From Betaproteobacteria bacterium (lineage in GTDB: Bacteria; Acidobacteriota; Terriglobia; Acidiferrales; UBA7541): DNA of 64,000 nt. Made by a program: the position numbers and the translations under genes. The notes beneath the pieces were generated by a model. That model searched no databases and was not told where the DNA came from. It saw nothing but the letters and a program-made list of their open reading frames with translations. The stretch spans positions 1 through 64,000 of the forward strand of contig CAJCHZ010000077.1 in assembly GCA_903970165.1 (NCBI GenBank), given 5' to 3'. Of the stretch, positions 11,675 through 61,891 are shown in pieces (positions within the stretch are counted from its first letter, which is position 1; each line of letters begins with the position of its first letter).

Positions 11675-14170
11675 TTACGGCTGCCAGTCGCAATCGAGCA
11701 TCCCCATACTCCCTATCGGCGGGCCATCGGGCGGCTCGACGGGCGGCGTCAGATCCATGCGCTTGGGATCTTTTTCAAACAGCTCAATTTGCCTGGCCGC
11801 GAAGTAGACGTGCGCCCGATCGGAAATTACGCCTGAGGGTGAATTGAGCCAATCCTGTAGCTCTTTGAGTTTGAAGGAGGCGATGGCGCGAACTTCGTCA
11901 GTTGCGTGGTCATTGGCGGAGAGGGCCATCAAATCGTATAGGGCGACATTGTCGATGGTGTTGGCGATTTCCGCGTTGTAGTCTTTCCCGTGCGGCGCTT
12001 TCCACGTCGCGCTGAGCACGGCGTCGAGGATTTCGTCGAGGCCGGGGTTTTCTTGATTGCGCGCGTGGAATTCGACGAGGCGCGCGGCGCGCTCCGGATT
12101 GAAGAGAAATTGCAGGACGTGCTGCGCTGCGGATTCCGCGGGAGCGAGCGCGTCAAAAGCCGGGCTGGTGTGAATCTTGAAGTCCTCGCGGTCACGCGGG
12201 TATTCCGGCGGACGCGGGGGAATCATTTTTAGCAGCGGCTCGGGCAGGGCGAGCACCTCCGGTTTCAGCGTAGCCAGAACGGCGGCAAGTGCGCGGCGCT
12301 GCTCGGCGGGAGCGACGATTTGCGTGGGAATCTCGCCATCCCCGCGCAATGCAAAGGTGTAGTCCATTCCTCCGACGAGCTTGCTGGCGGCTTCGACCTG
12401 GTAGCGATGCAACATGTAGATGGGTGCGAGAGTGTCTTCCATGGTCGCGAGTGGCGCGCCTTCGCGAATATTGTTTTCGCCGAAGCGTTTTAGGGCGCCG
12501 CCGCGGACCTGCATCAGCCGGTTCAATTCGTCCACAGGATTCGAGCCGCTATCCCAAAGATGCGCGACGCTGCTGGAAGAGCCTGGGGGACGCGCATCCT
12601 GGTCCGTGAGGTAACGGAGGCCACGGCCGAAAGCGTCGGTAAGTATTTTATTGAGAGCGGCGCGCTCGTCGGTACCCGGCGCGAAGTCGCGGTAACCCCA
12701 TGTGATGGAGACTTTGTCCCATTCGCCGATGCCCGTGGCATAGGCGTCGGAGAGATCGGGAGTTCCGTCGGCGGCGAGGTTCACCAGCGGTGGCGGATAA
12801 TCCATCACCGAGGAACGGTTGACCGTGCTGGCGGAATAGTTGTGCATTAGCCCGAGAGTGTGGCCAACTTCGTGGGCCGCGAGTTGGCGAAGGCGCGCAA
12901 GGGCCATGTCCATCATTTTTTGTGAGACAGGTTTTCCTTTTTCGTAGGGGGCGAGCAGCCCTTCGGCAATCAGGTAGTCCTGGCGCACGCGCAGCGAGCC
13001 AAGCGTGACGTGTCCCTTAATGATTTCGCCGGTGCGCGGGTCAATGACCGCCGCGCCGTAGGACCACCCGCGCGTCGCGCGGTGCACCCACTGGATCACG
13101 TTGTAGCGGAGATCCATCAGGTCAGCATCTTCGGGCATTAGTTCCACGCGGAAGGCGTTTTTGTATCCGGCGGCTTCAAACGCCTGGTTCCACCAGCGCG
13201 CGCCTTCGAGAAGCGCGGAACGGATCGGTTCCGGCGCACCGCGATCGAGGTAATAAACGATGGGCTGAACCGGCTCGCTGAGCGCGGCTTTCGGATCTTT
13301 TTTCTCGAGGCGGTGGCGAGCCGTAAAACGTTTGACGATGGGTTCGCTGACCGCCGTCGCGTAATCCATGTAGGCGATTCCGAAGAAGCTGCTGCGTGGA
13401 TCATAGATGCGGGGCTTGTAACCCGGCGGGGGAAGCTGGACGAAGGAGTGATGCTCGCGAACGGTGATGGATTCAGGGGACGGAGTGACCTGGCGCACCC
13501 AGCCGCCTGGTTCGTCACCTGCGAATGTCAGCGTGGCTTCGACTTCCGTGTTGAGCGGAAAATTTTTGGTGTGGGAATTTTCCGCCAAGGGAGGAAAAAT
13601 CGCGCAGCGCGAGGCATCGAGGTGGTAGGAACCCTGCTTCGTGCGTCGAAGCGTCGCCGGAATGCCGTGAGCGTCTCGCAGGAAGAAGTCCGTCGCATCC
13701 ACCAGCGCGTGGCCATTTTCTTCGGCGCCAACGGTGAAACCCCAGAGCGCGGATTCCGCGAAAGAATCACGGACCGCGCGGCGCTCATCGGCGTCGTTCG
13801 AAACAGCGCGATATTCCAGGTTTTCTTGGATGAGCAGAATTTTTGGGCCGCTGCGCTCGAACCGAACGATGCCCGTAATGCCCAGCTGGCCGCGGTCGAG
13901 CCCAATGTCGTTCGAACCGATGCCCGCGGGGAGACCGCTCTGATACAGGAATTCCGTGCTCCACTTATCAATTTCGAGCCACAGCTTGCCCTGCTTTGCG
14001 TCCCAATAAAGATTGAAATATCCGGGGAGCTTTTGCATCCCCGCCGTTTTGTCGGCGATGGTCGGCGTCTGTGCTGCGTCGGGAAGTGCTCTATCGCGAG
14101 GTGCCGCGAAAGCCAGCGCGGGCACGGCCAGCACGCAAAGCAAAAAAAGACACCTGCAACGTTTCAGCAT
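11675..14170 (-). CDS. secreted zinc-dependent metalloprotease (DUF5117/DUF5118 type)
   Basis: An 831-residue exported metalloprotease. Counted from ATG 14170, the N-terminus MLKRCRCLFLLCVLAVP is a signal peptide ending near AFAAPRD. The zinc site is HEVGHTLGLMH (His433, His437, His443, with catalytic Glu434), an extended metzincin-type motif followed by SVMDYPPP, a likely Met-turn. The regions before the protease core (KLPGYFNLYWD, LYQSGLPAGIGSNDIGL) are typical of large acidobacterial and Bacteroidetes metalloproteases with DUF5117/5118 domains. The open frame extends 17 codons upstream, but the chosen Met begins the signal peptide. It is divergent from mqnA with about 100 bases between starts. 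It probably acts in the periplasm or outside the cell; the substrate is unknown. Confidence 0.88.
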   Translation of the reverse strand: MLKRCRCLFLLCVLAVPALAFAAPRDRALPDAAQTPTIADKTAGMQKLPGYFNLYWDAKQGKLWLEIDKWSTEFLYQSGLPAGIGSNDIGLDRGQLGITGIVRFERSGPKILLIQENLEYRAVSNDADERRAVRDSFAESALWGFTVGAEENGHALVDATDFFLRDAHGIPATLRRTKQGSYHLDASRCAIFPPLAENSHTKNFPLNTEVEATLTFAGDEPGGWVRQVTPSPESITVREHHSFVQLPPPGYKPRIYDPRSSFFGIAYMDYATAVSEPIVKRFTARHRLEKKDPKAALSEPVQPIVYYLDRGAPEPIRSALLEGARWWNQAFEAAGYKNAFRVELMPEDADLMDLRYNVIQWVHRATRGWSYGAAVIDPRTGEIIKGHVTLGSLRVRQDYLIAEGLLAPYEKGKPVSQKMMDMALARLRQLAAHEVGHTLGLMHNYSASTVNRSSVMDYPPPLVNLAADGTPDLSDAYATGIGEWDKVSITWGYRDFAPGTDERAALNKILTDAFGRGLRYLTDQDARPPGSSSSVAHLWDSGSNPVDELNRLMQVRGGALKRFGENNIREGAPLATMEDTLAPIYMLHRYQVEAASKLVGGMDYTFALRGDGEIPTQIVAPAEQRRALAAVLATLKPEVLALPEPLLKMIPPRPPEYPRDREDFKIHTSPAFDALAPAESAAQHVLQFLFNPERAARLVEFHARNQENPGLDEILDAVLSATWKAPHGKDYNAEIANTIDNVALYDLMALSANDHATDEVRAIASFKLKELQDWLNSPSGVISDRAHVYFAARQIELFEKDPKRMDLTPPVEPPDGPPIGSMGMLDCDWQP

Positions 14171-47061: not shown

Positions 47062-49107
47062 TTAGTTCGCGTTGGCGAGGGTTGGGCTAGCGTTACCCCA
47101 GACGACGGAGTTGCCCCAAACGACGGAGTTACCCCAGACCACCGAATTGCCCCAAACGACCGAGTTACCCCAAACGACGGAGTTACCCCAAACCACCGAA
47201 TTACCCCAAACGACCGAGTTACCCCAGACCACAGAGTTATTCCAGATCGTACCGGGGGCTCCCGAAATGGTAATCGCGTTATTGTTCGCGTTGTATACGG
47301 CCGTCGGGGAAAGGGCGGAGCCCACCGTAGCGGGCGCCAGGTCTGTGCTGGACAGCGCCGCCTCGGCGTCAACTGCGCCGGCTCCTACTGAGAATATGTC
47401 CTGTTCAATCGTATAGGTTATGCCGGTGCCGAGGTCGGTCGCCGTCGTATATTGCCCAAAACCCTTCCAAGCAGACTTCATCAAGCGGGCTTTCACCTGA
47501 TCCGGTGTCAGCGACGGACTCTTTTGCAGCATAAGAGCTGAGACGCCACTGACTACCGCCGTGGACATGCTGGTGCCACTCAGGCGGACGTAAAACGAAC
47601 CGCCGTATTGCGAACTACAAACCGTAAGGGCAGAGTTGCAAGGGTAGACGAGAATCGAAGGAAATTCGGAAACCAGTGTGGGTGTCCCGTTCGGCTTCCT
47701 CGAAACCACTTGATTGCCTGGAGCAACGAGGTCGGGCTTGACGATGTGGTCCAGCGCGGTAGGACCCTTCGAGCTGTAGCTGGTCATCGTCTGCGAAGTT
47801 TGTGCGCCCGTTCCGTGTGTATTCGTTGCGCCGACGGTGATCACATAAGGATCGTTCCCGGGAGCGCCGATCGTGGCATATCCGTCCACGCCGCCGACAC
47901 TGTATTCGCCCATGTTGCCGGCAGAGACAACGACCACGATTCCGGCATTCCATGCTGCTTCCACGGCCTGGCAAAGAGGATCCTGCTTGTAGCTCTCGTA
48001 GATGCCGCGGCCGAGCGAAAGGTTCAGCACGCGAATGTTGTAAGTGCTTTGTAGAGAGATCGCTTCCTGGATGGCGGCGATAATGCCGCTATCGGTGCCC
48101 ATGCCGTTCTGATCCAGGGCGCGAAGATTGACGAGATTGACTTCCGGCGCGAGTCCTTTATAGACGCCTGGGTAGTTGTAATACAGAGACATGTGGCCGT
48201 TACCGCCAACGATGCCTGCGACGTGTGTGCCGTGACCGTACTGGTCCGCACTGCCAGAACTCGTGGTGACGAAATTCTGATTGTAGACGACGCGCGCTTG
48301 GTTATTCGCGTCGTTGTTCAGGTCCGAGGCGGGCCCGATGCCGCTATCCACGACCGCGACGCCGATGCCCGTACCATTCCAACCATTGGACGCGGCGATG
48401 TCGCCGTTAACCGCCGTCACAACCTTATCCAGCTGGCCTTTCACCGGGCGATCCGGAGAAATGTACGCAACGTTGGCATTCGATGCCAGGCTCTGCAGGT
48501 TCGAACCCCTTACCGTTACCAGCTCTGCCTTTACCACCGGTAGATCCGCTTTCGTGGCAACTACGTTGTCGGCGAGATCGGAGGCCGTCGGCGCCTGGTG
48601 AAACTGAACGATCACGTCCATCTGAGCTTGCGGATCCACAGCCTTGAGGTCAGGGGAGATCTTGGCGGCCACCAACGCAGCCTGAGCTTCCTGCAATTGC
48701 GGTGTCCCGAGCGCCGCATTCCTGTTGCCGCTTGGCGACCCGGAGGGAGAGCTCGCCGATTTTGCCGCGTAGGCTGAAGCAACAAACGGGGCTGACACGG
48801 GTGAGGCAGCTTCCGTGGCGTTGTTTTTCTCAATGCTGAACGCAGAACTTACCTGAGACTGAGATGTCTGCAACTGGCTTGGAGAGGCGGTGCCCGATGC
48901 AGATCGAGCGTCACGCAGCGAAGAACCCTGAGCGGGCGCAAACGCGAGCAGGCTGTCAGTCTCCTGCCTTCCCCCGGTCCCATGAGAAAGGCCGGAGATA
49001 CCCCAGGCCGCCAGGGCGAGCGAGAAGGCAATCAGCGTTCCCCAGGTGGTCGTCTTGAGGTACCCACCTTCTTGATTCTTTCGATCTTGGTGCGAATCGG
49101 CGTTCAT
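47062..49107 (-). CDS. subtilisin-like serine protease with NSVVWG-repeat tail
   Basis: A 681-residue S8 peptidase. A short cytosolic N-terminus precedes a helix (TLIAFSLALAAWGISGL, about 24-40), then a Ser/Ala-rich spacer, a propeptide-like segment (about 155-220, MDVIVQFHQAP) and the catalytic domain: Asp254 in VVDSGIGP, His292 in YGHGTHVAGIVGG, Ser513 in GTSMSTAVVSG. Cys490 and Cys497 may pair. The C-terminus has eight exact NSVVWG repeats (624-671) and ends NASPTLANAN. The hexapeptide repeat suggests a beta-solenoid or adhesion tail, perhaps for surface retention. The ATG follows a GAGGAG site. It is divergent from the c-di-GMP gene with 429 bases between. Confidence 0.92.
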   Translation of the reverse strand: MNADSHQDRKNQEGGYLKTTTWGTLIAFSLALAAWGISGLSHGTGGRQETDSLLAFAPAQGSSLRDARSASGTASPSQLQTSQSQVSSAFSIEKNNATEAASPVSAPFVASAYAAKSASSPSGSPSGNRNAALGTPQLQEAQAALVAAKISPDLKAVDPQAQMDVIVQFHQAPTASDLADNVVATKADLPVVKAELVTVRGSNLQSLASNANVAYISPDRPVKGQLDKVVTAVNGDIAASNGWNGTGIGVAVVDSGIGPASDLNNDANNQARVVYNQNFVTTSSGSADQYGHGTHVAGIVGGNGHMSLYYNYPGVYKGLAPEVNLVNLRALDQNGMGTDSGIIAAIQEAISLQSTYNIRVLNLSLGRGIYESYKQDPLCQAVEAAWNAGIVVVVSAGNMGEYSVGGVDGYATIGAPGNDPYVITVGATNTHGTGAQTSQTMTSYSSKGPTALDHIVKPDLVAPGNQVVSRKPNGTPTLVSEFPSILVYPCNSALTVCSSQYGGSFYVRLSGTSMSTAVVSGVSALMLQKSPSLTPDQVKARLMKSAWKGFGQYTTATDLGTGITYTIEQDIFSVGAGAVDAEAALSSTDLAPATVGSALSPTAVYNANNNAITISGAPGTIWNNSVVWGNSVVWGNSVVWGNSVVWGNSVVWGNSVVWGNSVVWGNSVVWGNASPTLANAN
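47095..47238 (-). repeat. Eight 18-base tandem repeats encoding NSVVWG
   Basis: Eight consecutive 18-base units sit in frame at the 3' end of the subtilase gene, plus a degenerate IWN unit before them. Units differ at third codon positions (AAC/AAT, TCC/TCG/TCT, GTC/GTG, GTC/GTT, GGT/GGC), yet every unit encodes the same six residues. Confidence 0.95.
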
Positions 49108-49536
49108 GTCTTGAGGTTCTCCTCGGTCGATTGCGAACCAGATACTCTGAGCACAAATCCTCTCTGTGTTGACCGGAACAGTGTGCGGGAGGGGGCAATG
49201 CCCGTCGATGGTACAGGGGTATGTAAGGACTAGTACTAAGGGTTTGCTGGTTTTGGAACACCCGCCGGCGTGGGGATCTTCCTATACATATGTTGCCAAT
49301 CGATTACCGTGGGTTCCCTCGCGAGCCCCTCGTGTTAAGAGTTTATCTTGGGACAAATCCTGCCGACAGTACTATTCGCAATCTCGCCTGAAACCTTCAT
49401 TCTGACAACAACGGAGGCATGGTGTGCTCCCTTTCGGGAATTAGCCCGTCTGTAAACGCGGAAGAAGATTTGGCGAAAGTCGAATGGTGCCCACTCGACC
49501 TATGCGCAGGCTCCTCTCGCAAACGATTGTTTGGGA
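49108..49536. other. Divergent regulatory region, no gene assigned
   Basis: This 429-base region separates the starts of the subtilase and the c-di-GMP enzyme, so it must hold both promoters. A GGAGG followed directly by ATG at 49419 opens a 48-codon frame ending at 49565, too weakly supported to call. No riboswitch consensus was recognised. Confidence 0.5.
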
Positions 49537-52047
49537 ATGCGACTCGGAGCCTGCACACAAGATGAACGATCGCGCGTATCGGTGAACGGTTTGAAAAAAA
49601 TCTTCAACAATCCCGGCAAAGACGGCCAGTTCCTTGGATGGCCTGCAGTTAGCTTTATAACCATCCAAATATTGATCGGCATTCCGCTCTTGCCTTACGC
49701 GATTTGGCACTGGAAATCGGAAAGCCTGCTGCGCCTGGCCTGCTTCATGGCTGTCGCGCTTGGCGCGTCCCTTTTAAAGGTCCGCCTACCGGGTATTCAC
49801 GCCACCATGTCCGCGAATTTCCTGTTCATTCTGGTCGGCATCCTTGATCTTTCTTATCCGGAAACGCTGCTGGTTGGTTGTCTCGGCGGACTCGTGCAAT
49901 CGCTCTGGCAAGCCAAGCCTCGCCCGAAACTGATTCAGCTGCTCTTCAATCTCGCAAATCTCGCCATTTCGATTACCGCTGCCAACGCGGTCTTCCACAG
50001 CCAGTCAGCCCTTGCGCTCGGTTTGCGCTGGCCGCTCCTGCTGGCCGCGGCTTCCACGACCTATTTTGCCGTCAACACCATGTCGGTTTCCGCGGTCATC
50101 GCCATCACTGGCCGCCGCAGTCCGGTGCAGGTCTGGCGCGAATGTTATCTGTGGTCCTTCCCCTATTACCTGTTGGGCGCAGTCATCGCCGGCGGAATAA
50201 GCATCGTTAACCGTGCTCTGGGATGGCAGGTTTCCATCCTGGCAGTGCCCATCGTTTACTGGATTTATCGCTCTTACCGTACCTACCTGGACCGTCTCGA
50301 AGGAGAGAAAAAACATACCGAAGAGATCGCCGAGCTGCACTTGCGCACCATAGAAGCGCTGTCCCTTGCCATCGAAGCCAAGGATCACACCACGCACGAT
50401 CACCTGAAGCGTGTGCAGACATACGCCGTCGAGATCGGGAAAGACCTGGGCATCAGTGACTCCGAACTGAACGCCGTGCGCGCCGCCTCTCTCCTTCATG
50501 ACATTGGCAAGCTCGCGGTGCCCGAACACATCCTTTCCAAACCGGGCCGCCTGACGCCGGAAGAGTTCGAAAAAATGCAGATTCACCCCGTCGTGGGTGC
50601 CGAAATTCTCAATCGCGTTCAATTTCCATATCCGGTCGTTCCGATCGTGCGCTCTCATCATGAGAAGTGGAATGGCAAAGGCTATCCCGATGGGTTGTCG
50701 GGCGATGCGATTCCCATTGGCGCTCGGATTCTCGCCGTGGTGGATTGCTTTGATGCGCTCACTTCCGAACGGCCTTATCGCCGTGCGATGTCGCCCCCGG
50801 AAGCTATGGGTGTCTTGCGGGCCGAGAGCGGCGAAAGCTATGACCCGCGCGTCGTCGAGTGCATTGAGCGGCGTTACAACGAACTGGAAGCGGCCGTGAA
50901 ACTCTCCGAAGGGCGCGAAAATGTCCTTCAGTCGCTGTCCGTTCCAAAGCGCGAAGTGGTCCCTATGGCCGGATTCTCCACCCTTCCCAACAAAGCCGAG
51001 TTGCGTGCCACTTCCTTCCTGGCTTCCATCGTTTCCGCCCGGCAAGAGGCGCAACTGCTTTTTGAGTTGGCGCAAACCCTCGGAAATTCACTCAGTTTGC
51101 GGGAAACCCTCTCCGTCGTTGCGGTTCGCCTGAAGGAGATGATTCCCCACAATTCCATCGTGTTTTTCGTATGCCAGGAAGACAAGCTCGTGCCCAAATA
51201 TGCTCACGGCATCGACTACGACCTGTTCAAGTCTCTGGAAATACCTTTGGGCCAGGGCATCTCCGGCTGGGTCGCGGCAAACCAGAAGCCGATCCTTAAT
51301 GGCGATCCCGCAGCTGAGTCCAAATATCTTGGCGATCCGAAGCTCGTGTCCTGCATGCGATCGGCGCTTTCCGTGCCTCTCCAGGGCCGCGAAAATGTTG
51401 CCGGTGTTTTGACGCTTTATCTGGCGGAATCGCAGGGATTCACGAACGATCATCTTCGCCTGCTGCTGGCCGTCAGTTCCAAACTGGGCCTTTCCGTCGA
51501 AAATGCCATGCAGTTCGAACATGCCGAAGATACCGCCAGCACCGACTTCCTCACCGGGCTGCCGAATGCGCGCTCCATCTGCGCCCACCTCGAACGCGAA
51601 CTGGCGCGATGCAAGCGCAGCGGCACTCAGCTGGCCGTTCTGCTCTGCGATTTGAACGGCTTCAAGAGCGTGAACGACAGTTTTGGCCACATAATTGGCA
51701 ATAAGCTTTTGACCGAAGTCGGTAGGAACTTGAAGACCGCGTGCAGGGAATGCGACCAGGTCGGCCGCCTGGGCGGTGACGAATTCGTGGTGGTGTTGCC
51801 GGATTGCCTGCCTGAAGGCCTGGCAGTAGTCAAAAGCCGCCTGGACGTTGCCGTGAGAACCGCCGCTAAAGCTGTTTGTGGAGAAAGTGTGGTGACGGTC
51901 AGCATCGGCACCGCTTTCCACCCCAAGGATGGTTCGACCGTCGAAGAACTCCTCGCCGAAGCCGATCAAAACATGTATTTGTCCAAGGCATCCCATTACA
52001 AGAACGTGGACGAACAAAGCCGTCTGCAGGCCATCGACAGGCGGTGA
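49537..52047 (+). CDS. membrane HD-GYP / GAF / GGDEF signalling protein
   Basis: About 836 residues from ATG 49537 (TTG 49531 and GTG 49582 are alternatives; none has a strong ribosome site). Seven or so N-terminal helices (about 35-245) form a sensor-like membrane domain. An HD-GYP domain follows with LLHDIGK (His321, Asp322), SHHEKWNGKGYPDGL (GYP intact) and RPYRRAMSPPEAM, expected to hydrolyse c-di-GMP. A GAF domain covers about 500-660. A GGDEF domain with the intact motif RLGGDEFVV (746-750) and DFLTGLPNARS should make c-di-GMP. So both synthesis and breakdown are encoded. Seven bases separate it from the peptide-permease genes, implying one operon. Confidence 0.92.
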   Translation: MRLGACTQDERSRVSVNGLKKIFNNPGKDGQFLGWPAVSFITIQILIGIPLLPYAIWHWKSESLLRLACFMAVALGASLLKVRLPGIHATMSANFLFILVGILDLSYPETLLVGCLGGLVQSLWQAKPRPKLIQLLFNLANLAISITAANAVFHSQSALALGLRWPLLLAAASTTYFAVNTMSVSAVIAITGRRSPVQVWRECYLWSFPYYLLGAVIAGGISIVNRALGWQVSILAVPIVYWIYRSYRTYLDRLEGEKKHTEEIAELHLRTIEALSLAIEAKDHTTHDHLKRVQTYAVEIGKDLGISDSELNAVRAASLLHDIGKLAVPEHILSKPGRLTPEEFEKMQIHPVVGAEILNRVQFPYPVVPIVRSHHEKWNGKGYPDGLSGDAIPIGARILAVVDCFDALTSERPYRRAMSPPEAMGVLRAESGESYDPRVVECIERRYNELEAAVKLSEGRENVLQSLSVPKREVVPMAGFSTLPNKAELRATSFLASIVSARQEAQLLFELAQTLGNSLSLRETLSVVAVRLKEMIPHNSIVFFVCQEDKLVPKYAHGIDYDLFKSLEIPLGQGISGWVAANQKPILNGDPAAESKYLGDPKLVSCMRSALSVPLQGRENVAGVLTLYLAESQGFTNDHLRLLLAVSSKLGLSVENAMQFEHAEDTASTDFLTGLPNARSICAHLERELARCKRSGTQLAVLLCDLNGFKSVNDSFGHIIGNKLLTEVGRNLKTACRECDQVGRLGGDEFVVVLPDCLPEGLAVVKSRLDVAVRTAAKAVCGESVVTVSIGTAFHPKDGSTVEELLAEADQNMYLSKASHYKNVDEQSRLQAIDRR

Positions 52048-52054
52048 GCGCAAC

Positions 52055-52960
52055 ATGAGCAGAGGCACCTTGCCCCCATTCAGCGTCCCGTGGAAGAAAG
52101 TGATGCGCTTGTTTTTGCGCAGAGCCGTCTGGCTCATGGCCGTGATTCTTGCAGGCGGTCTGCTTGGCGCTACCCTGGTGCGTTATGCGCCGGGATACGG
52201 CGTTGACGAACGCGAACTCGATCCGCGTTTGAGCCAGGCCAGCGTCGAAGCCCTTCGCGTCCAGCATCATCCGAATGCAAATCTTCTCGGCTACTATGCG
52301 AAGTATCTGACCAATGCCGTGCGCGGCGATTTGGGGATTTCTGAATCCACGCAACGTCCCGTCTCCGAACTCATCCGCGAGCGTTTCCCGGTAACGGCCA
52401 AAGCCGTACTTCTGGGAATGCTCAGCGCCTGGTCTTTGGCGTTTTTCCTCGCCATGCTTGGGCAATATTTTCGAGGCTGGGTTTTCGAGGTTTCCAGCAC
52501 TCTGCTAACCGGGTTTCTGCTGGCTTTGCCTTCCACCGTCATTGCACTGCTCTTTGTTTATTTTCGAGCGCCCGTCTACCTGGCCATTGCGTGCGTTACC
52601 TTTCCAAAGCTGTTCCGCTTCATCCACAACCTTCTGGTGCAGGCCTACGAACAGCCGCATGTGTTGGCAGCGCGCGCTCGCGGTATCGGGCCGGTTCGCA
52701 TCTTTCTTCGCCACGTTTTGGCATTTGCCTCTCCCGCTTTATTCGCGCTGCTGGGGGTTTCGCTTAGCCTCGCGTTCGGTGCTGCTATTCCCATCGAAGC
52801 GCTCACGGATTCTCCCGGTATTGGCCAACTGGCCTGGTTCGCGGCTATCAATCGAGATTTGCCCCTAGTCGTGAACTTAACCTTGCTGGTCACCCTGATC
52901 ACCGTTGCCGGCAATTCCCTGGCAGATTATTCGGGCCATCTCGCCACGAGGGCGTCATGA
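52055..52960 (+). CDS. peptide/nickel ABC permease, DppB/OppB-like
   Basis: A 301-residue inner-membrane permease with about six helices. ATG 52055 follows a GGTGAG-like ribosome site, seven bases after the signalling gene. The N-terminal RAVWLMAVILAGGLLGATLVRYAPG and the region GDLGISESTQRPVSELI are typical of DppB-type permeases; the EAA-like loop is ARARGIGPVRIFLRHVLAFA. The stop overlaps the next permease start by ATGA. It probably forms the channel for oligopeptide uptake with its neighbours. It is longer frame-wise upstream, but that part lies inside the signalling gene. Confidence 0.88.
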   Translation: MSRGTLPPFSVPWKKVMRLFLRRAVWLMAVILAGGLLGATLVRYAPGYGVDERELDPRLSQASVEALRVQHHPNANLLGYYAKYLTNAVRGDLGISESTQRPVSELIRERFPVTAKAVLLGMLSAWSLAFFLAMLGQYFRGWVFEVSSTLLTGFLLALPSTVIALLFVYFRAPVYLAIACVTFPKLFRFIHNLLVQAYEQPHVLAARARGIGPVRIFLRHVLAFASPALFALLGVSLSLAFGAAIPIEALTDSPGIGQLAWFAAINRDLPLVVNLTLLVTLITVAGNSLADYSGHLATRAS

Positions 52961-53772
52961 GCTCCTCAAAAAGTTTGCGGTTGGTTGCGGGATTGCTTCT
53001 CAGTGCAATTTTCCTGCTGGCGCTCGGCGCGAATTTCGTCGCTCCCTATTCCTACGCAAAACAATTTCGCAATGCGCCGTCAGCCGCTCCTTCCGCAGTA
53101 CACCTCTTTGGCACGGACGCTCTCGGCCGCGATGAATTTTCCCGCCTTTTGTTTGGCACGCGCGTGTCCTTGCTGCTGGCTCCCGCGGCCGCGCTATTAT
53201 CCACGTTCATCGCTGGAATTCTTGGCGGCCTCGCGGCGTTTCTCGGTGGCTGGTGGGAACGTGCCATCCTCGCGAGCGCGGATTTATTGATGGCCCTGCC
53301 ACTGCTCTTCGTTCTCCTGGCCTTACGTGCAACGCTTCCGCTGGACGTTGCACCGCTGATCTCCGCGATGGCTACTTTCCTGATTCTCAGTTTATTGGGC
53401 TGGCCTTCTTCACTGCGCGTGGTCTGGGCCGCTGCTCGCAACATCCGCGAATCGGATTTTCTCTTGCTGGCGCGTTCTAGCGGCAGCAGCCCGCTGCGCG
53501 TTATCGTTCGCCAGATCCTTCCAAGCTTGAGCCCCGTTCTGGCCGCGCAATTCTGGGTAACGATTCCAGTTTTTATCCTCGCCGAAGCCACCCTCAGCAT
53601 GCTGGGCCTTGGCGTCATGGAGCCTCTTCCATCTTGGGGGAATCTTCTGCGCGGACTGGAAAACCCTTCCGCGTTTCAAGCCAACCCCTGGACCATCGCG
53701 CCTCTGATTCTTCTGATCATTGTCGTCTTCTGTTTTCAATTTATTTTGCCTTCGCGGGGGGACTTGGACTGA
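52957..53772 (+). CDS. peptide ABC permease, DppC/OppC-like
   Basis: A 271-residue permease with about six helices. The N-terminal helix is followed by HLFGTDALGRDEFSRLLFG, the standard DppC motif, and an EAA loop, LLARSSGSSPLRVIVRQILP. ILAEATLSMLGLGVMEPLPS and WGNLLR near the end are also diagnostic. The ATG overlaps the upstream gene by ATGA, and its TGA shares one base with the binding-protein ATG (TGATG), giving tight translational coupling. It pairs with the upstream permease. Confidence 0.9.
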   Translation: MSSSKSLRLVAGLLLSAIFLLALGANFVAPYSYAKQFRNAPSAAPSAVHLFGTDALGRDEFSRLLFGTRVSLLLAPAAALLSTFIAGILGGLAAFLGGWWERAILASADLLMALPLLFVLLALRATLPLDVAPLISAMATFLILSLLGWPSSLRVVWAAARNIRESDFLLLARSSGSSPLRVIVRQILPSLSPVLAAQFWVTIPVFILAEATLSMLGLGVMEPLPSWGNLLRGLENPSAFQANPWTIAPLILLIIVVFCFQFILPSRGDLD

Positions 53773-55406
53773 TGCTCCGCAGACTTCGTGTTTTCGCAAG
53801 TTTGATACTCTTCGCCGCCGCTGCCTGCGCGCGGGCGCAAACCGGTGGCGTACTCCATTTCTGTTTGCACGGCGAGCCAAAAACGTTTAACCCGAATCTT
53901 GTGGACGACGAAGCAGCCGAAAACGTTCGCTATCTCACTGGCGGCGTCCTGATTCGCCTCAACCGTCAAACGCAAGTCCTCGAACCGGCGCTTGCCTCTT
54001 CCTGGCAGGTCTCCAAAGACGGCCGCAAAATCACCTTCCAACTGCGCAAAAGCCTCTATTTTTCCGACGGCACTCCCTTTACCTCGGAAGACGTCGCCTA
54101 CACGATGAAATCATTGATGGATCCCCAGCTGCATTCACCAACCGGAGACTCCTTCCGCTCGGGTGAAGGAACTGTCGAAATTCAGACCCCAACTATCGGC
54201 ACAATTTCGATCACCTTCCCGGCCCCGATCGCGGGTCTCGAGCGCCTCTTCGATCAAGTCGCCATAATGTCCGCTCACTCGCCCAAGAAAGAGATGGCCG
54301 TTCTGGGACCTTTCTACGTTTCTGACTACAAGGCCGGCTCTTACGTCGAACTCGCGCGGAATCCGAATTATTGGAAACACGACGCGCAGGGCCACGCCCT
54401 CCCTTATCTTGACGGCATACATCTGGATATTCAAAGAAACCGCGATATTGAGCTCCTTCGTTTCGAGCGCGGCGATTTGCAACTTATCAACCGTCTCGAT
54501 GCCGAGTCCTACAAACGCCTTTCGAAAGAAAACTCCAGCGCTCCAAGGAATGCTGGTACCGGCCTGGATTCGGATTTTCTGTGGTTCAATGAGAGTCCCA
54601 ACGCTCCGATGGCGGAGTCCAAAAAATCCTGGTTTCGCACGACGGAATTCCGACGCGCCATTTCTGCCGCGATTAATCGCGATGACATATCTCGCATGGT
54701 CTTCGACGGCCACGCGAAGCCAGCTTACGGTCCAATCTCTCCCGCGAACCATTTCTGGTTCAATGCCGCGATTCCAGCTCCCAAATACGATCCCCAAAGT
54801 GCCCTAAAACTTCTGGGGCAAGCCGGATTTCGTTTCGCCAACGACGAACTCCGCGACAAATCGGGCAATCGCGTCGAGTTCACGCTGGTCACCAATTCCG
54901 GCAACGCCATCCGCGAAAAAATGGCCAGCATGATTCAGCAGGATCTTTCGGAAATTGGAATCAAGGTCTCCGTCGTCACGCTCGATTTTCCTTCCTTGTT
55001 GGAACGCATGACGCGCACGTTCGATTACGACGCCTGCTTGCTCGGTTTGGTCAACACCGACCTCGACCCGAACGGCCAGATGACGGTCTGGCTCAGCTCC
55101 GGAGAAAATCATCAGTGGAATCCCAGCCAGAAAACTCCCGCCACTCCGTGGGAAGCCGAGCTGGATAAACTCATGCATCAGCAAGCCACGGCCTTAAACG
55201 ACACGGAACGCAAGAAAGCCTTCGATCAGGCGCAGCAAATTATTTATGAGCAACAGCCTCTCATCTACATCGTGAATCGCGATGTGCTCACGGCTTTTTC
55301 TCCCGCCGTCCATGGCGCGTCACCCACGGTACTGACTCCTCCGGCCTTTTGGAATGCCGAAGTCCTGCAACTCGCAGCGTCCTCTCAACAGGGAGCCGAG
55401 AGGTGA
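53772..55406 (+). CDS. peptide ABC substrate-binding protein (SBP family 5)
   Basis: A 544-residue exported solute-binding protein. MLRRLRVFASLILFAAAACA is a signal peptide; no clear lipobox Cys is at its end, so it may be a soluble periplasmic protein. Family motifs are EPKTFNPNLVDDEAAEN, LEPALASSWQVSKDGRKITF, LRKSLYFSDGTPFTSEDVAY and ELARNPNYWK. The start at 53772 is set by the one-base overlap with the permease stop. It should bind oligopeptides or similar ligands and deliver them to the permease pair. Its position between permeases and ATPase is unusual compared with the common A-B-C-D-F order. Confidence 0.92.
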   Translation: MLRRLRVFASLILFAAAACARAQTGGVLHFCLHGEPKTFNPNLVDDEAAENVRYLTGGVLIRLNRQTQVLEPALASSWQVSKDGRKITFQLRKSLYFSDGTPFTSEDVAYTMKSLMDPQLHSPTGDSFRSGEGTVEIQTPTIGTISITFPAPIAGLERLFDQVAIMSAHSPKKEMAVLGPFYVSDYKAGSYVELARNPNYWKHDAQGHALPYLDGIHLDIQRNRDIELLRFERGDLQLINRLDAESYKRLSKENSSAPRNAGTGLDSDFLWFNESPNAPMAESKKSWFRTTEFRRAISAAINRDDISRMVFDGHAKPAYGPISPANHFWFNAAIPAPKYDPQSALKLLGQAGFRFANDELRDKSGNRVEFTLVTNSGNAIREKMASMIQQDLSEIGIKVSVVTLDFPSLLERMTRTFDYDACLLGLVNTDLDPNGQMTVWLSSGENHQWNPSQKTPATPWEAELDKLMHQQATALNDTERKKAFDQAQQIIYEQQPLIYIVNRDVLTAFSPAVHGASPTVLTPPAFWNAEVLQLAASSQQGAER

Positions 55407-56290
55407 TGGAACAGTCGCCCTTGCTGCGTCTGCATTTGTCCGTTGACTACCGCCACAAACCGGGAGTCTTGCGTGACATCTCGCTCGAACTGCAGCGCGG
55501 CGAAATTCTCGGCCTGGTCGGCCACAGCGGCTCTGGCAAAAGCACTCTGGCTCTAGCCATCCTCCAGCTTCTTCACTTGAAAGGCGGCAAGGTCGAGGGA
55601 GAAGTCCTCTTCAAAGGCCAGAACCTCCTACCGTTGAAGGAAAGGCAACTACGCACTTTGCGTGGCCGTGAGATCAGCATCGTTCTGCAAAGCCCTCTGG
55701 CCGCGCTGAACCCGGCGCTCTCTATTGGCGCGCAACTTCGCGAAGCCTGGCGCGCCCACGCAAACTCTTCAGCCAAAGACTGCCTCGACGCCATGCAACG
55801 ATCTCTCGAAAGCGTAAGCCTGCCTTCGGACGAGGAATTCCTGAAGCGCCGCTCTTCCCAGCTCAGTGTCGGCCAGGCCCAACGCGTCGTCATCGCCATG
55901 GCCATCCTCCACCGTCCATCGCTGCTCATCGCCGATGAGGCCACCAGCGCGCTCGATCCCATCACGCAGTCCGAAATACTCAATCTTTTCGCGCGCCTCA
56001 ATCGCGAACTTAAAATGGCCATCTTTTATATTTCCCACGATCTTCTTTCCGTAGCCGCCCTCTGCCATCGCATCGCCATTCTGCACCACGGACAAATCGT
56101 CGAGACGGGATCGCCGCAAATGATCTTCGGCGCGCCTTCTCACGAGTACACTCAAAAACTGGTTGCCGCCTTACCCAAGTCCCCGCTTCAGGAATCTCTC
56201 CATAGGGAAGACGTCCTTCTAAAGAATGAAACAACCGCACAAGCTGCTAAAGAGAGATGCGCGGCTCTAGAAAGTGTTCTAAATAGCTGA
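55406..56290 (+). CDS. peptide ABC ATPase, DppD-like
   Basis: A 294-residue ATPase with Walker A GHSGSGKST (39-47), Q-loop Gln95 (VLQSPLAALNP), signature LSVGQ (153-157, with Val replacing the usual Gly), Walker B LLIADE (173-178) and H-loop His211 in ISHDLLS. It starts at 55406 with a one-base overlap (TGATG). Only one ATPase gene is present, so it must act as a homodimer or pair with a subunit encoded elsewhere. It closes the operon; a 230-base AT-rich interval follows. Confidence 0.9.
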   Translation: MEQSPLLRLHLSVDYRHKPGVLRDISLELQRGEILGLVGHSGSGKSTLALAILQLLHLKGGKVEGEVLFKGQNLLPLKERQLRTLRGREISIVLQSPLAALNPALSIGAQLREAWRAHANSSAKDCLDAMQRSLESVSLPSDEEFLKRRSSQLSVGQAQRVVIAMAILHRPSLLIADEATSALDPITQSEILNLFARLNRELKMAIFYISHDLLSVAALCHRIAILHHGQIVETGSPQMIFGAPSHEYTQKLVAALPKSPLQESLHREDVLLKNETTAQAAKERCAALESVLNS

Positions 56291-56520
56291 ACCGCATCGT
56301 AAGCATTGTGCTCTGCTTTCACGATCACCACACCTCGCTTACCTCCCGAAATGCCCTTTCTTAAGTCTTCCACTCTGCCGCAAGAATGGCCCTACATCTT
56401 CTCGACGAAAGAGGAAAAAGGTTCATGCCCGGGGCCCGAGCCAGCAACTAAAAAAGAAATACAACAAATTGTTATAACCGTTTCCTCGGGCGTCTGAATC
56501 GAATGCTGGGAGTCAGGGCA
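56291..56520. other. AT-rich interval before the glycerol operon
   Basis: No gene seen. AACAA-A-TTGTT at 56463-56473 is a short palindrome and TATAAC at 56473-56478 a possible -10 sequence without a matching -35. Another TATAAT occurs at 56554-56559 just inside the porin frame. These could mark the operon promoter, but support is weak. Confidence 0.35.
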
Positions 56521-57867
56521 ATGAAAACGGAATCAGCATTTCCTCAAATGCTATATAATAGAGGTGTACATAAAAAGTATGTATTAACCAGTGTATATAC
56601 ATTGGCACTGCTGTTCTTGTGTTCCGCGAGCAGGCTCTGCGCGCAAGGCCAAGTAACCTTGGATGCTTTGTATGCCGGCGACGATTCCTCCGCGCCCCAT
56701 CCGGCCAGGGACTATTTGTTCGGTGATTGGGGTGGCAAAAGAAGTGAACTGGCGTCGAAAGGAGTTGTCTTCGACTTCTTCTACGTCGCGGACCTGCAGG
56801 GGAATCCCGTAGGCGGTCTTCAGCAAACTCAGGCCGGATGGGGACGCATCCGCGGCACCATGGACGTTGACTTGGGAAGACTGGCTGGCTGGGATGGCTG
56901 GACTTTCCACGCCACAGGGCTGTGGCAGTTCGGGGGCAACCTCGGTGCCGATATGGGAACCCTCGCAAATCCCAGCGGCCTCGTCAGCGCGCATACCACG
57001 CGGCTGGACTCCTTCTGGGTGCAAAAGTCACTCGATCACAATCGTTTCTACATTCGCGTAGGCCAACTGGCCGGACTTGATTTTTACGGCAATCAGGAAT
57101 ATGGAGCTTCCTACCTGATCGAACCATTCGACTATGCCTTCGGAAATCTTTTCACCGACTACGAATCGTTCAATCCTGCCGGCACACCTGGCGCACAGAT
57201 TCAGCTCTTTCTCTGGCGCACCCTATACCTTAAAACGGCCGTTCTTTCCGGCAACCGCGACCCCTATGAGCAAGATCCCACTGGTTTCCATTTCGCGATC
57301 CGGGATTCACCCGTGTTCGCGGACGAAATTGGTTTCACGCGCGACAAGGCCAACGAAGTCCAGGTGCATCGAAAAACCTATCCCGGCATCTACAAGTTCG
57401 GTTCAACGTACAACGCAGGCAAATTCACAAACGCGGCAGGAATTCGTAGCAGCGGCAACTACCTGATCTACGCCATGGCGAATCAAGCGTTATACAGGTC
57501 CGAAGCCGGTGCCAACAGCGGCCTGGATGCAACTGTCGGCTTTGACTGGGGCCCCGGAGACCTCAACCGTGAAAACAGCCAGACCATCGCGGGTATTCGA
57601 TACAACGGCCCCATTCCAAGCCGGCCGCAGGATGGAGTTGCTTTTGCGTTCGTATATACGAAAATAGGCGATCCGTTTCAGGCCGTAGGAATTCCTCCAG
57701 GCTTGCCTCTTCTCGGATCGGAAAAGGCCTTTGAGACAAACTATGCGCTCCAGGTCAAACCTTACTTTCTCGTTCAGCCAGTGTTTCAATACTACGTGGA
57801 CGTCGGCGCGAACTCGCATATTCCTAACGCCGCCGTATTAGGCTTCCGCGTAAAAGTGACCTTTTGA
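56521..57867 (+). CDS. oprB: OprB-type carbohydrate-selective porin
   Basis: A 448-residue outer-membrane porin from ATG 56521. The signal peptide region YVLTSVYTLALLFLCSASRL ends near CAQGQ. The mature chain starts with YLFGDWGGKRSELASKGV, the hallmark of OprB porins, then alternates in beta-barrel fashion and ends AVLGFRVKVTF with a terminal Phe as expected. ATG 56548 is an alternative start. It precedes glpD by 18 bases, so it probably delivers glycerol or related polyols across the outer membrane in this operon; OprB classically carries glucose. Confidence 0.88.
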   Translation: MKTESAFPQMLYNRGVHKKYVLTSVYTLALLFLCSASRLCAQGQVTLDALYAGDDSSAPHPARDYLFGDWGGKRSELASKGVVFDFFYVADLQGNPVGGLQQTQAGWGRIRGTMDVDLGRLAGWDGWTFHATGLWQFGGNLGADMGTLANPSGLVSAHTTRLDSFWVQKSLDHNRFYIRVGQLAGLDFYGNQEYGASYLIEPFDYAFGNLFTDYESFNPAGTPGAQIQLFLWRTLYLKTAVLSGNRDPYEQDPTGFHFAIRDSPVFADEIGFTRDKANEVQVHRKTYPGIYKFGSTYNAGKFTNAAGIRSSGNYLIYAMANQALYRSEAGANSGLDATVGFDWGPGDLNRENSQTIAGIRYNGPIPSRPQDGVAFAFVYTKIGDPFQAVGIPPGLPLLGSEKAFETNYALQVKPYFLVQPVFQYYVDVGANSHIPNAAVLGFRVKVTF

Positions 57868-57885
57868 AGGAGGTTGGGCGCACTT

Positions 57886-59568
57886 ATGAGACCACGGGAT
57901 CAGCAGCTCCAGGGCATAGCGGGCAAATCGTTTGATGTTTGCGTGATCGGTGGTGGAGCGACTGGCGCGGCGTGCTCACTTGACGCCCAGCTGCGCGGGC
58001 TGCGAACGGTAATGCTCGACGCCGGCGATTTCGCCGGGGCGACTTCGAGCGCCGCCACCAAAATTGTACACGGCGGCGTGCGTTACCTCGAAGAAGCCAT
58101 CAAAGACGTTGATCCGAAGGAATACCATGTGGTTGTGCGCGCCCTTCACGAACGGGTTCGCATGCTGAACAACGCGCCGCACCTCACCCGGCAACTGGCG
58201 TTTGTGGTGCCGAGCTACCATTGGCTGAATGCTGCCTACCTGGACATTGGCCTAAAAATCTACGATTGGCTGGCCGGCTCTGCCCGCATCGCGCCAAGCA
58301 AGTATGTCTCCCGCGAAGAAACACTGGAGCGCATGCCGAACTTGAAGCAGGAAGGCCTGATCGGCTCCGTGCAGTATGCAGACGGGCAATTCGACGACGC
58401 GAGGTACTGCCTTGCGCTAGCCCAGACGTTTTCCGAGGCAGGCGGGAATGCCCTCAATTACGCTCGCGTAACGGAATTTGGCCGCAACTCGGCCGGGCGT
58501 CTTTCCAGCGTCCACGTTACCGAGAATCGAGCCGGTAAGCAGTTCGTCGTGAATGCCAAAGTTTTCATCAATGCCACCGGGCCTTTCACGGATGCCATTC
58601 GAACCCTTGCTACGCCCACCGTGCACAAGCGCATGCGTCTCAGCAAGGGAGCCCACATCCTGTTTCCGCGCGACGTTTTCCCTTGCAAGGATGCGATGTT
58701 GATTCCGAAGACGGATGATGGGCGCGTCCTTTTTGTTGTTCCCTGGCGTGGTCGGCTTCTCGTCGGTACGACCGAACAGGAAGTTACACCCGATGAAGAA
58801 TATTTTGTGAGCCGCGAAGATGTCGACTTCATGCTCGGCCAGCTGAACAAATATCTCGAACATCCGGTGAAGGCTTCTCAAATCGTTAGCGGTTTCGCCG
58901 GAGCGCGTCCTTTGGTCAGCGCGGGAGAGAACGAGAGCACACAAAAGATCGCACGCGACGACGTGATCGAAGTGGACGCCAAGAGCGGCTTAATCAGCAT
59001 CATGGGCGGGAAGTGGACGACGCATCGCGCCATGGCAGAGGATACCGTCGCTGCCGCTCAAAAGGCGCTGGGCGTTCCCGTCACGGAAAGTCCAACTCGG
59101 TCGCACGTCCTTCATGGCGGAGAAGGATTTAGCAATGACCTTTCGGAAAAGCTCACGGCCGCATTCCCTATTTCCAAGGAAACAGCCCGTCACCTGGCGG
59201 CCAAGTTCGGCACCGCCGCATGGAAAGTGCTGGAACTCACCAAGGGAGGCGCCAATCTTGGCCAACCTATCCTTTCTGGCTCTCCGCAAATTCAAGCCGA
59301 GGTTGTCTACTGCGTGCGCGAGGAACTCGCTGCCACGATCGAAGACATTCTCGCGCGCAGGATCGGTGTGCAGTTTTATTCCTGGCGGGACGCCATTCGC
59401 TGCGCGCCACCTGTCGGCAAGCTGATGGCACAAGAGCTCCAATGGTCAAATGATCAAACACAGGCAGCCGTGGAAGCTTATGTTGGCAAGATAAATCACT
59501 ACTTGGAGAAAGCAGGTTTGGAACAGGAGACGCCTTCCGGTGCCGCGGGGCGCGCATCGGCCGATTGA
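57886..59568 (+). CDS. glpD: FAD-dependent glycerol-3-phosphate dehydrogenase
   Basis: A 560-residue flavoenzyme that oxidises sn-glycerol 3-phosphate to dihydroxyacetone phosphate and feeds electrons to quinone at the inner membrane. The FAD-binding motif VCVIGGGATGAACSLDA lies at about 18-34, and GATSSAATKIVHGGVRYLEE is diagnostic of GlpD. Also visible are VPWRGRLLVGTTEQEV and SIMGGKWTTHRAMAEDTV. AAGGAGG at 57867-57873 lies 12 bases before ATG 57886; TTG 57874 would be too close. It sits between the porin and glpK in one operon, 19 bases from glpK. Confidence 0.94.
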   Translation: MRPRDQQLQGIAGKSFDVCVIGGGATGAACSLDAQLRGLRTVMLDAGDFAGATSSAATKIVHGGVRYLEEAIKDVDPKEYHVVVRALHERVRMLNNAPHLTRQLAFVVPSYHWLNAAYLDIGLKIYDWLAGSARIAPSKYVSREETLERMPNLKQEGLIGSVQYADGQFDDARYCLALAQTFSEAGGNALNYARVTEFGRNSAGRLSSVHVTENRAGKQFVVNAKVFINATGPFTDAIRTLATPTVHKRMRLSKGAHILFPRDVFPCKDAMLIPKTDDGRVLFVVPWRGRLLVGTTEQEVTPDEEYFVSREDVDFMLGQLNKYLEHPVKASQIVSGFAGARPLVSAGENESTQKIARDDVIEVDAKSGLISIMGGKWTTHRAMAEDTVAAAQKALGVPVTESPTRSHVLHGGEGFSNDLSEKLTAAFPISKETARHLAAKFGTAAWKVLELTKGGANLGQPILSGSPQIQAEVVYCVREELAATIEDILARRIGVQFYSWRDAIRCAPPVGKLMAQELQWSNDQTQAAVEAYVGKINHYLEKAGLEQETPSGAAGRASAD

Positions 59569-59587
59569 TTTCTAAAGGAGAAACGCT

Positions 59588-61123
59588 ATGTCCAACTATT
59601 TGGGCGCCATCGATCAGGGGACGACAAGCACGAGGTTCATTGTCTTCGACCGAACGGGAAGAATTGTTTCGGTGGCACAGAAAGAACACGAGCAGATCTA
59701 TCCGAAACCCGGATGGGTCGAGCATGATCCGGAAGAGATTTGGCGCCGCACGCAGGAAGTAATTGCCGATGCCATGCAACAGCGGGTTTTCCGGCCCAAG
59801 GATCTTGCCGCCATTGGAATTACAAATCAGCGCGAAACGACGATTCTCTGGAATCGCAAAACCGGAAAAGCCGTATACAACGCCATCGTCTGGCAGGACA
59901 CGCGCGTCGAGGATTACGTGGCAGAACTATCTCGTGATGGCGGCCAGGACCGTTTCCGGCAGCAGACTGGATTGCCTCTCGCAACATATTTCAGCGGCCT
60001 CAAGATTCGCTGGATCTTGAACAATGTCCGCGGCGCTCGCGAACTTGCCGAAGCTGGTGATTTGTATTTCGGCAACATCGATTCCTACATGGTCTGGAAA
60101 CTTACCGGCGGAACGAACGGCGGCGTTCACGTTACGGATGTCACCAACGCCAGCCGCACTCAGTTGATGGATCTTCGTACCCTTGCCTGGGATAAAAACC
60201 AATTGAAGATTTTCGGTATTCCCGAAGCAGTCTTGCCAAAGATTGTTTCGAGCAGCGAGGTCTATGGACCTGCAAAGCTCACGTCCGTTGAAGGAGTGCC
60301 GGTGGCGGGAATTCTGGGTGACCAGCAAGCGGCGCTTGTAGGCCAAACGTGCTTCGAGTCGGGGCAGGCAAAGAATACCTATGGAACAGGCTGCTTCCTG
60401 CTGATGAATACGGGAACTGAGGCCGTGTTGTCCAAATTCGGACTGATTACAACGGTCGCTTTCAAATTCGGCCAGAAGCCTGCTCAGTACGCTCTCGAAG
60501 GCAGCATTGCGATCACCGGCGCACTGGTCCAGTGGGTTCGCGACAATCTCGGCCTCATCGAAAAGAGCTCGGATATCGAAACTCTCGCGCGCACCGTGAA
60601 GGACAACGGCGGTGTCTATTTCGTCCCCGCCTTCTCCGGTCTATACGCTCCGTACTGGCAGGCGAGTGCGCGCGGCGTGATCGCCGGCCTCACGCGTTAC
60701 GCCAACAAAGGACACATCGCCCGCTCCGTTCTCGAGGCAACGGCTTTCCAGACGCGCGAGGTCGTCGAGGCCATGGAGAAGGACTCAAAAATTAATCTCG
60801 ACGTCCTTCGCACCGACGGTGGAATGGTCGTAAACGAGCTCTTGATGCAGTTTCAATCCGACATTCTCGATCGCCCAGTGGTTCGTCCTCTGATTAAAGA
60901 AACCACTGCCCTCGGCTCGGCTTATGCCGCTGGTCTCGCGGTCGGTTATTACAAAGATCTCGACGAACTCCGCGCCAACTGGGGAGTGGATCATACCTGG
61001 AAGCCTCAGATGGAGAACGGCACCCGGGAAAATCTTTACAGCGAATGGAAGAAGGCCGTAACCCGTTCGTTTAACTGGGCGGATACTCCTGGCGTTGGCA
61101 CGGCAGCAAAAAGCGGCTCTTAA
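59588..61123 (+). CDS. glpK: glycerol kinase
   Basis: A 511-residue FGGY-family kinase that phosphorylates glycerol at C3 using ATP. The N-terminus has [19 protein letters not shown]; the substrate and catalytic region shows [22 protein letters not shown] and [17 protein letters not shown] (catalytic Asp in GDQQ). [14 protein letters not shown] and [17 protein letters not shown] are also typical. A strong AAAGGAGAAACGCT ribosome site precedes ATG. It is nearly full-length relative to E. coli GlpK (502). It acts with the adjacent facilitator and dehydrogenase. Confidence 0.97.
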
Positions 61124-61162
61124 TCTTACGCAAGATAAATCTCGAAGAGAGGATTGTCCGAC

Positions 61163-61891
61163 ATGCTTTCACCATTTTTCGGAGAGTTCATGGGAACTCT
61201 GGTGTTGATTCTGCTCGGCGACGGCGTTGTGGCCGGCGTGCTGTTGAAGCGCTCGAAAGCAGAAAACGCCGGCTGGATGGTTATTACGACCGGTTGGGCG
61301 TTTGCCGTTATGGCAGGAGTGTACGTTTCGATAGCCTGCGGCAGTAAGGACGCCTTTCTCAATCCGGCCTTCACACTCGGAGTTGCGATCACCTCACACG
61401 ACTATTCAAAACTCGTTCCTCTAATCGGAGCGCAAATGCTTGGCGCATTTGTCGGCGCTGCTCTTGTTTGGCTGCAGTACTTGCCTCATTGGAAGGAAAC
61501 TCCAGACACCTCTCTGAAGCTGGCGGTTTTTTGTACCGCGCCTGCAATTCGCAACATCGCGGCAAATCTTATCAGCGAGATCATCGGCACATTCGCTCTT
61601 GTATTTATAGCCGCGACTATTTTCTCGAAAGCGGTTGCGAAGGATGGCATTGCCGCTGGTCTTGGGCCTTACCTCGTAGGTTGTCTTGTCTGGGCAATTG
61701 GTCTTTCGCTCGGCGGCACGACCGGCTACGCGATCAATCCAGCCCGCGACCTCGGTCCTCGCATCGCTCACGCGGTTCTTCCCATTGCAGGCAAGGGGAA
61801 CTCGGACTGGGGATATGCGACCATCCCCGTGGTTGGCCCCCTTATCGGCGCCAGCCTCGCAGGACTTCTTATCCGCGTCCTAAGTTTTTGA
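61163..61891 (+). CDS. glpF: glycerol facilitator (MIP family)
   Basis: A 242-residue aquaglyceroporin with six helices and two half-helices. Both NPA boxes are present: LNPAFTLGVA and INPARDLGPR; the Asp after the second NPAR is typical of glycerol-conducting rather than water-only channels. ATG 61163 is chosen because AGAGAGGA lies 9 bases upstream; TTG 61154 has no room for a ribosome site. It completes the porin-glpD-glpK-glpF operon: outer-membrane entry, inner-membrane entry, phosphorylation and oxidation. Confidence 0.94.
   Translation: MLSPFFGEFMGTLVLILLGDGVVAGVLLKRSKAENAGWMVITTGWAFAVMAGVYVSIACGSKDAFLNPAFTLGVAITSHDYSKLVPLIGAQMLGAFVGAALVWLQYLPHWKETPDTSLKLAVFCTAPAIRNIAANLISEIIGTFALVFIAATIFSKAVAKDGIAAGLGPYLVGCLVWAIGLSLGGTTGYAINPARDLGPRIAHAVLPIAGKGNSDWGYATIPVVGPLIGASLAGLLIRVLSF

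Follow-up and report, generated by a model that had tools for sequence, protein, structure and literature searches.

Why a gene for a membrane protein of c-di-GMP turnover should be followed directly by the genes of an ABC importer is the question raised by a run of five forward-strand genes at 49531–56290 of the 64,000-nucleotide stretch of DNA analyzed here (the window). Our preferred answer, to which we assign a probability of roughly 55%, is that these genes belong to a protein-scavenging module in which a sensor in the membrane links the turnover of c-di-GMP with proteolysis and peptide uptake. Soil nitrogen supply is limited by protein breakdown, about whose signals little is known in Acidobacteriota. 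A conserved cluster of protease, peptide-type importer and c-di-GMP enzyme offers a testable hypothesis for the coupling of feeding to attachment.

Gene organization and the predicted importer

The first gene of the operon ends at 52047 and has candidate starts at 49531 (TTG), 49537 (ATG) and 49582 (GTG), the choice among which is uncertain since in most close orthologues the alignment begins only around residue 6–24. It is followed by open reading frames at 52055–52960, 52957–53772, 53772–55406 and 55406–56290, with spacings of +7, -4, -1 and -1 nt in that order. The gene positions of the initial annotation and its 7-nt gap and 4-, 1- and 1-nt overlaps were exact to the base. The genes are presumably co-transcribed. 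A scan of 52040–52060, where the initial annotation had held that a promoter or terminator would speak against coupling, returned no candidate for either, this type of scan being weak evidence for this phylum.

An S8 subtilase of 681 aa is encoded on the reverse strand, divergent from the operon (47062–49107; Peptidase_S8 4.3e-51), and its catalytic triad of D254, H292 and S513 is invariant across 9 homologues. An 18-bp tandem array in the same gene (47092–47246, reverse strand; 8.2 copies in TRF) codes for C-terminal VVWGNS hexapeptide repeats. Such WG-type repeat tails were found in most S8 homologues at loci with permease B or HD-GYP genes, and the repeat sequence differs progressively between copies. 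A solenoid fold was considered for the tail and set aside, as the S8 structure model was poor (mean pLDDT 52), did not resolve the tail and supports no inference. The gap between the divergent open reading frames (49108–49530) is presumed to hold both promoters; no sigma-70 consensus match was found there by promoter scan and no match in Rfam. Riboswitch control was rejected, the Rfam matches in the window amounting to one tRNA.

The four remaining operon genes, all on the forward strand, encode permease B (301 aa, 52055–52960) and permease C (271 aa, 52957–53772), both matching BPD_transp_1, a family-5 solute-binding protein (544 aa, 53772–55406; SBP_bac_5 2.8e-74) and an ABC ATPase (294 aa, 55406–56290; ABC_tran 1.5e-27), the sole ATPase of the block. 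By Pfam this is the composition of a family-5 ABC importer, as in Opp, Dpp, App and Nik, and the closest solved relative of the binding protein is the oligopeptide-binding AppA (1xoc). It differs from those systems in that a c-di-GMP enzyme and a subtilase are encoded alongside it and in its single ATPase, since each complete block is adjoined by one ATPase whereas Dpp and Opp usually have a D and F pair; a second ATPase match at locus L059 is a separate 625-aa gene, and a partner ATPase may be encoded elsewhere in the genome. In addition, none of the importer proteins reached the NCBIfam equivalog cut-offs for Dpp, Opp or Nik (45 bits against 590 for DppB, 180 against 350 for Opp4C and 97 against 1005 for DppA). 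The DppB and DppC labels of the initial annotation were accordingly right in that both proteins are BPD_transp_1 permeases, but were too specific in light of the missed cut-offs and the single ATPase. Judged by these matches the importer is of family-5 type, not provably Dpp. Nickel, opines, sugars and haem are also among the cargoes of family-5 binding proteins; here the imported substrate is probably a peptide.

The membrane c-di-GMP protein and its sensor domain

The protein encoded at 49531–52047 (forward strand) was assigned from its open reading frame, Pfam matches, motifs and structure model as a membrane MASE9-like/HD-GYP/GAF/GGDEF protein. The MASE9 match (PF20972) is marginal, at 25.0 bits against a curated cut-off of 24.3, and is followed by an HD-GYP domain at residues 279–441 (50365–50853; HD_5 2.6e-44), a GAF domain at residues 521–654 (51091–51492; GAF_2 2.7e-12) and a GGDEF domain with an RxxD I-site at residues 669–822 (51535–51996; GGDEF 7.5e-39). 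The motifs HDIGK, HHEKWNGKGYP and GGDEF are all present, which bears out the HD-GYP and GGDEF catalytic motifs read in the initial annotation. The predicted structure had a mean pLDDT of 81.5 and a pTM of 0.41 and matched PmGH (4mcw, Z 24.7), the HD-GYP domain of DvhD (Z 24.2) and a Thermotoga GGDEF domain (4urs, Z 23.6). As to the fold of the membrane domain, structure searches with the whole protein returned HD-GYP and GGDEF chains throughout. Pfam gave no match to a periplasmic LapD/MoxY or dCache domain, and the whole-protein model shows a helical N-terminal domain.

Catalytic residues were judged from an alignment of 57 homologues. In PmGH the metal ligands are H189, E185, H221, D222, H250, H276, H277 and D305 and the catalytic residues D183 and K225 (PMC4159591). 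Seven of the eight ligands are kept, H189, H221, D222, H250, H276, H277 and D305 corresponding to H291, H323, D324, H352, H376, H377 and D405, while D183 and K225 correspond to D285 and K327; all of these residues are kept in 56–57 of the 57 homologues. The bridging carboxylate of E185, found in the trinuclear E/D-T-G subgroup, is absent, the position being T287 here and mostly T, S or N in the homologues. As the E185A variant of PmGH has reduced activity that is not lost (PMC4159591), a weaker or differently specific HD-GYP enzyme is possible. In the GGDEF domain the I-site residues R739 and D742 and the GGDEF motif at 748–752 are retained in most homologues, and N724 occupies the position of PleD D344, as placed by eye from the motif with no computed alignment. 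Given T287 and N724, activity or nucleotide specificity may differ. The protein is predicted to both make and break c-di-GMP, which is probably its output in preference to another cyclic dinucleotide; N724 leaves room for a Hypr/cGAMP output, for which a literature search on such proteins gave no match.

Stand-alone homologues of the membrane domain, of about 250 aa, adjoin S8 genes in many loci. At locus L130 (3247–5124) the domain is instead joined to a HisKA-HATPase-receiver output and is encoded directly upstream of the importer, an output swap in which the MASE9 match scored 22.0 bits, below the cut-off of 24.3. Because of this kinase version and the stand-alone copies beside S8, the membrane domain is likely the common sensor, and the module may have this domain, not HD-GYP output in itself, as its invariant element. 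The domain would respond to proteolysis products or to transport. The module draws attention to a sensor domain in the membrane for which a ligand could be identified. Examples of the stand-alone proteins lie at 13514–14281 of L041 and 16426–17163 of L151, none is present beside S8 in the window, and at L137 (3680–5095) two such membrane domains occur in tandem.

Linkage of the genes across the class

Of 61 relatives, 24 have the HD-GYP homologue and 16 that of permease B. The 399 genomes of the window's class gave 79 permease-B matches, in 76 genomes, and an HD-GYP gene lay directly upstream on the same strand within 300 nt in 50 of the 79. Genomes with permease B also held the HD-GYP family in 70 of 76 cases and the S8 family in 74 of 76, as against 47 and 25 of the 323 other genomes, these being counts over related genomes that are not phylogenetically independent. 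The co-occurrence is strong, but its p-values should not be read literally, given this relatedness and the selection of loci for HD-GYP or permease B. The search for the same gene order that had been proposed as a check by the initial annotation thus found it conserved across families of the class. Chance adjacency was rejected by the class-wide linkage of HD-GYP, S8 and importer genes.

About 70 loci, selected because they contain HD-GYP or permease B, were fetched; 57 carry permease B, and L057 and L058 were set apart. A homologue of the HD-GYP protein was encoded in 51 of the 57, in several arrangements, a count that includes L130, with its histidine kinase and only the membrane domain in common, and L135, where only GAF-GGDEF is found at a contig edge. 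The order was non-standard in 11 loci, the HD-GYP gene being downstream of the ATPase in 4, divergent in 4 and convergent in 3. No HD-GYP gene was nearby in 6 of the 57, several of these on short contigs, and genome G001 encodes a 79% identical HD-GYP protein at a locus that has neither transporter nor S8, so parts of the module can exist apart. An S8 homologue was found in 37 of the 57 permease-B loci. The claim that peptide uptake and c-di-GMP signalling form one functional unit is consequently strongly supported as regards the association of HD-GYP protein and transporter, but it was incomplete, as the recurrent subtilase had been missed.

Clustering of 902 open reading frames from the roughly 70 loci returned as recurrent families the HD-GYP/membrane domain, the binding protein, permease B, the ATPase, S8, permease C and a sigma-54 activator. 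No other family recurred, the next one being found in 6 loci. Downstream of the operon, positions 56503–61891 of the window read as a glycerol uptake cluster of OprB-like porin, GlpD, GlpK and GlpF-like proteins (names from reading the sequence); OprB and GlpD had no match near other copies of the module and GlpK had one weak match. The HD-GYP homologue of genome G043, at L059 (6552–8986, reversed), is split into two overlapping open reading frames, by a frameshift or an assembly error.

The sigma-54 activator was present in 28 of the 57 permease-B loci and absent from the window's copy and its close relatives. Sites of TGGCA-N6-TTGC type preceded 8 of the 29 HD-GYP genes at activator loci, against 9 of 300 genes taken as background. 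They were concentrated in one subclade, with none in the window, and are only suggestive of sigma-54 promoters upstream of HD-GYP genes. Near-consensus sites lie upstream of HD-GYP genes beside the activator at L050–L053, L063 and L065.

S8/HD-GYP pairs with no transporter were also found, all in metagenome assemblies: in one MAG of Pyrinomonadaceae, in further acidobacterial MAGs and in one of Armatimonadota. As its range extends beyond that of the transporter, the pair may be the older core of the module. On a FastTree tree a minimum of 16 changes was needed to explain the linkage of the transporter, and likewise 16 for that of S8; the order of gains and losses is unsure, since FastTree alone was employed and long branches were flagged.

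Proposed role and competing explanations

In the proposed protein-scavenging module the secreted subtilase would cut extracellular protein, and the resulting peptides would be captured by the binding protein and enter through two permeases driven by one ATPase, presumably as a homodimer. The MASE9-like sensor/HD-GYP/GAF/GGDEF protein would set c-di-GMP by the state of feeding, such that the cell keeps attached to the protein source during feeding and departs once the source is exhausted. Gene content, operon-like spacing, linkage across families and mostly intact motifs are observed, whereas the enzyme activities, the substrate and the direction of control are inferred. The tight operon, the co-occurrence in genomes, the linkage kept through rearrangement and the absence of another recurrent neighbor among the clustered families argue for this reading, as do the relation of the binding protein to AppA, a second subtilase/HD-GYP pair (see below) and loci L057 and L058, where S8 and HD-GYP stand with other permeases. 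It is weakened by the non-peptide cargoes of family-5 binding proteins, the missed NCBIfam peptide-transporter cut-offs, T287 and N724, and the separability of the parts. If it holds, protein feeding and staying attached would be controlled as one unit in soil Acidobacteria.

Solute-binding proteins are known to work with membrane c-di-GMP enzymes in Vibrio cholerae, where NspS acts with MbaA by docking on its periplasmic sensory domain. Here, in contrast, no comparable periplasmic domain was found and the binding protein belongs to a complete importer. The closest physiological parallel is keratin feeding by Fervidobacterium islandicum, in which c-di-GMP enzymes increase in step with proteolysis and the release of peptides, and c-di-GMP itself increases (PMC13157175). 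That increase favors the protein-scavenging reading, although the evidence there is a physiological correlation and here a conserved gene cluster.

The same genes could merely be co-regulated, protease, importer and c-di-GMP enzyme being useful under the same conditions with no direct coupling of sensor and transporter. The shuffled gene order and the parts that exist apart fit this view; we nonetheless consider it unlikely, as the linkage survives rearrangement and spans families and L130 has the same sensor domain next to the block but joined to another output. Rather improbable, too, is a system in which the HD-GYP/GGDEF protein controls at the envelope whether the subtilase is active or released, surface proteins are cut and the importer recovers the fragments, as in LapD-LapG and DvhD-DvhG, where a membrane protein with c-di-GMP domains is encoded beside an extracytoplasmic protease. 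DvhD also has an HD-GYP domain, matched by the structure model, and is proposed to control the protease DvhG (PMC13090378), and both the S8/HD-GYP pairs lacking a transporter and the stand-alone membrane domains adjoining S8 are compatible with such gating. DvhD/DvhG is the closest functional parallel for a protease with an HD-GYP membrane protein. The protease class differs, however, the partner here being a subtilase and not a BTLCP protease; a predicted membrane sensor apparently takes the place of a periplasmic dCache/LapD domain, a GGDEF domain is present, most catalytic residues are kept, an importer is in the operon and the clustering found no recurrent adhesin gene.

A peptide-signal circuit, in which the subtilase frees a peptide, possibly part of its WG tail, that acts as a signal once imported and is read either by the GAF domain in the cytosol or by the sigma-54 activator, appears a distinctly poor prospect. 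The recurrent hexapeptide tails, the oligopeptide-type binding protein, the cytosolic GAF domain and the activator at about half of the loci speak for it, while the activator is missing from the window's copy and close relatives and the repeats drift between copies as expected of a structural tail. Import of cell-wall (muro)peptides for murein recycling is very improbable. It was suggested by L057 and L058 (family f10), in which S8, HD-GYP and a permease pair are followed by genes for a SIS-domain protein, a BadF-type kinase, an SSF symporter, a MurQ-like SIS protein and an amidohydrolase, an assortment reminiscent of amino-sugar or murein recycling; that permease pair is different and distant (27–38% identity to the window's) and such genes do not recur at other loci.

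An extension of the protein-scavenging reading is a closed loop, in which the sensor domain, joined to HD-GYP/GGDEF, to a histidine kinase or alone, reads the products of the subtilase, possibly via the importer, and sets attachment, making proteolysis, import and c-di-GMP one circuit not described before. We consider this extension less likely than not. A search of open-access full text found no description of a protease/c-di-GMP enzyme/importer module.

The second, different subtilase/HD-GYP pair is found in the window's own genome, at 1374–3449 of contig C49, where a soluble 233-aa HD-GYP protein begins 9 nt after a different S8. This second architecture was adjacent in 20 of 20 fetched loci, the window's genome included. 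On the same strand after the C49 pair follow a zf-like gene of 215 aa, another of 1016 aa, and a separate family-5 transporter of peptide type with two ATPases.
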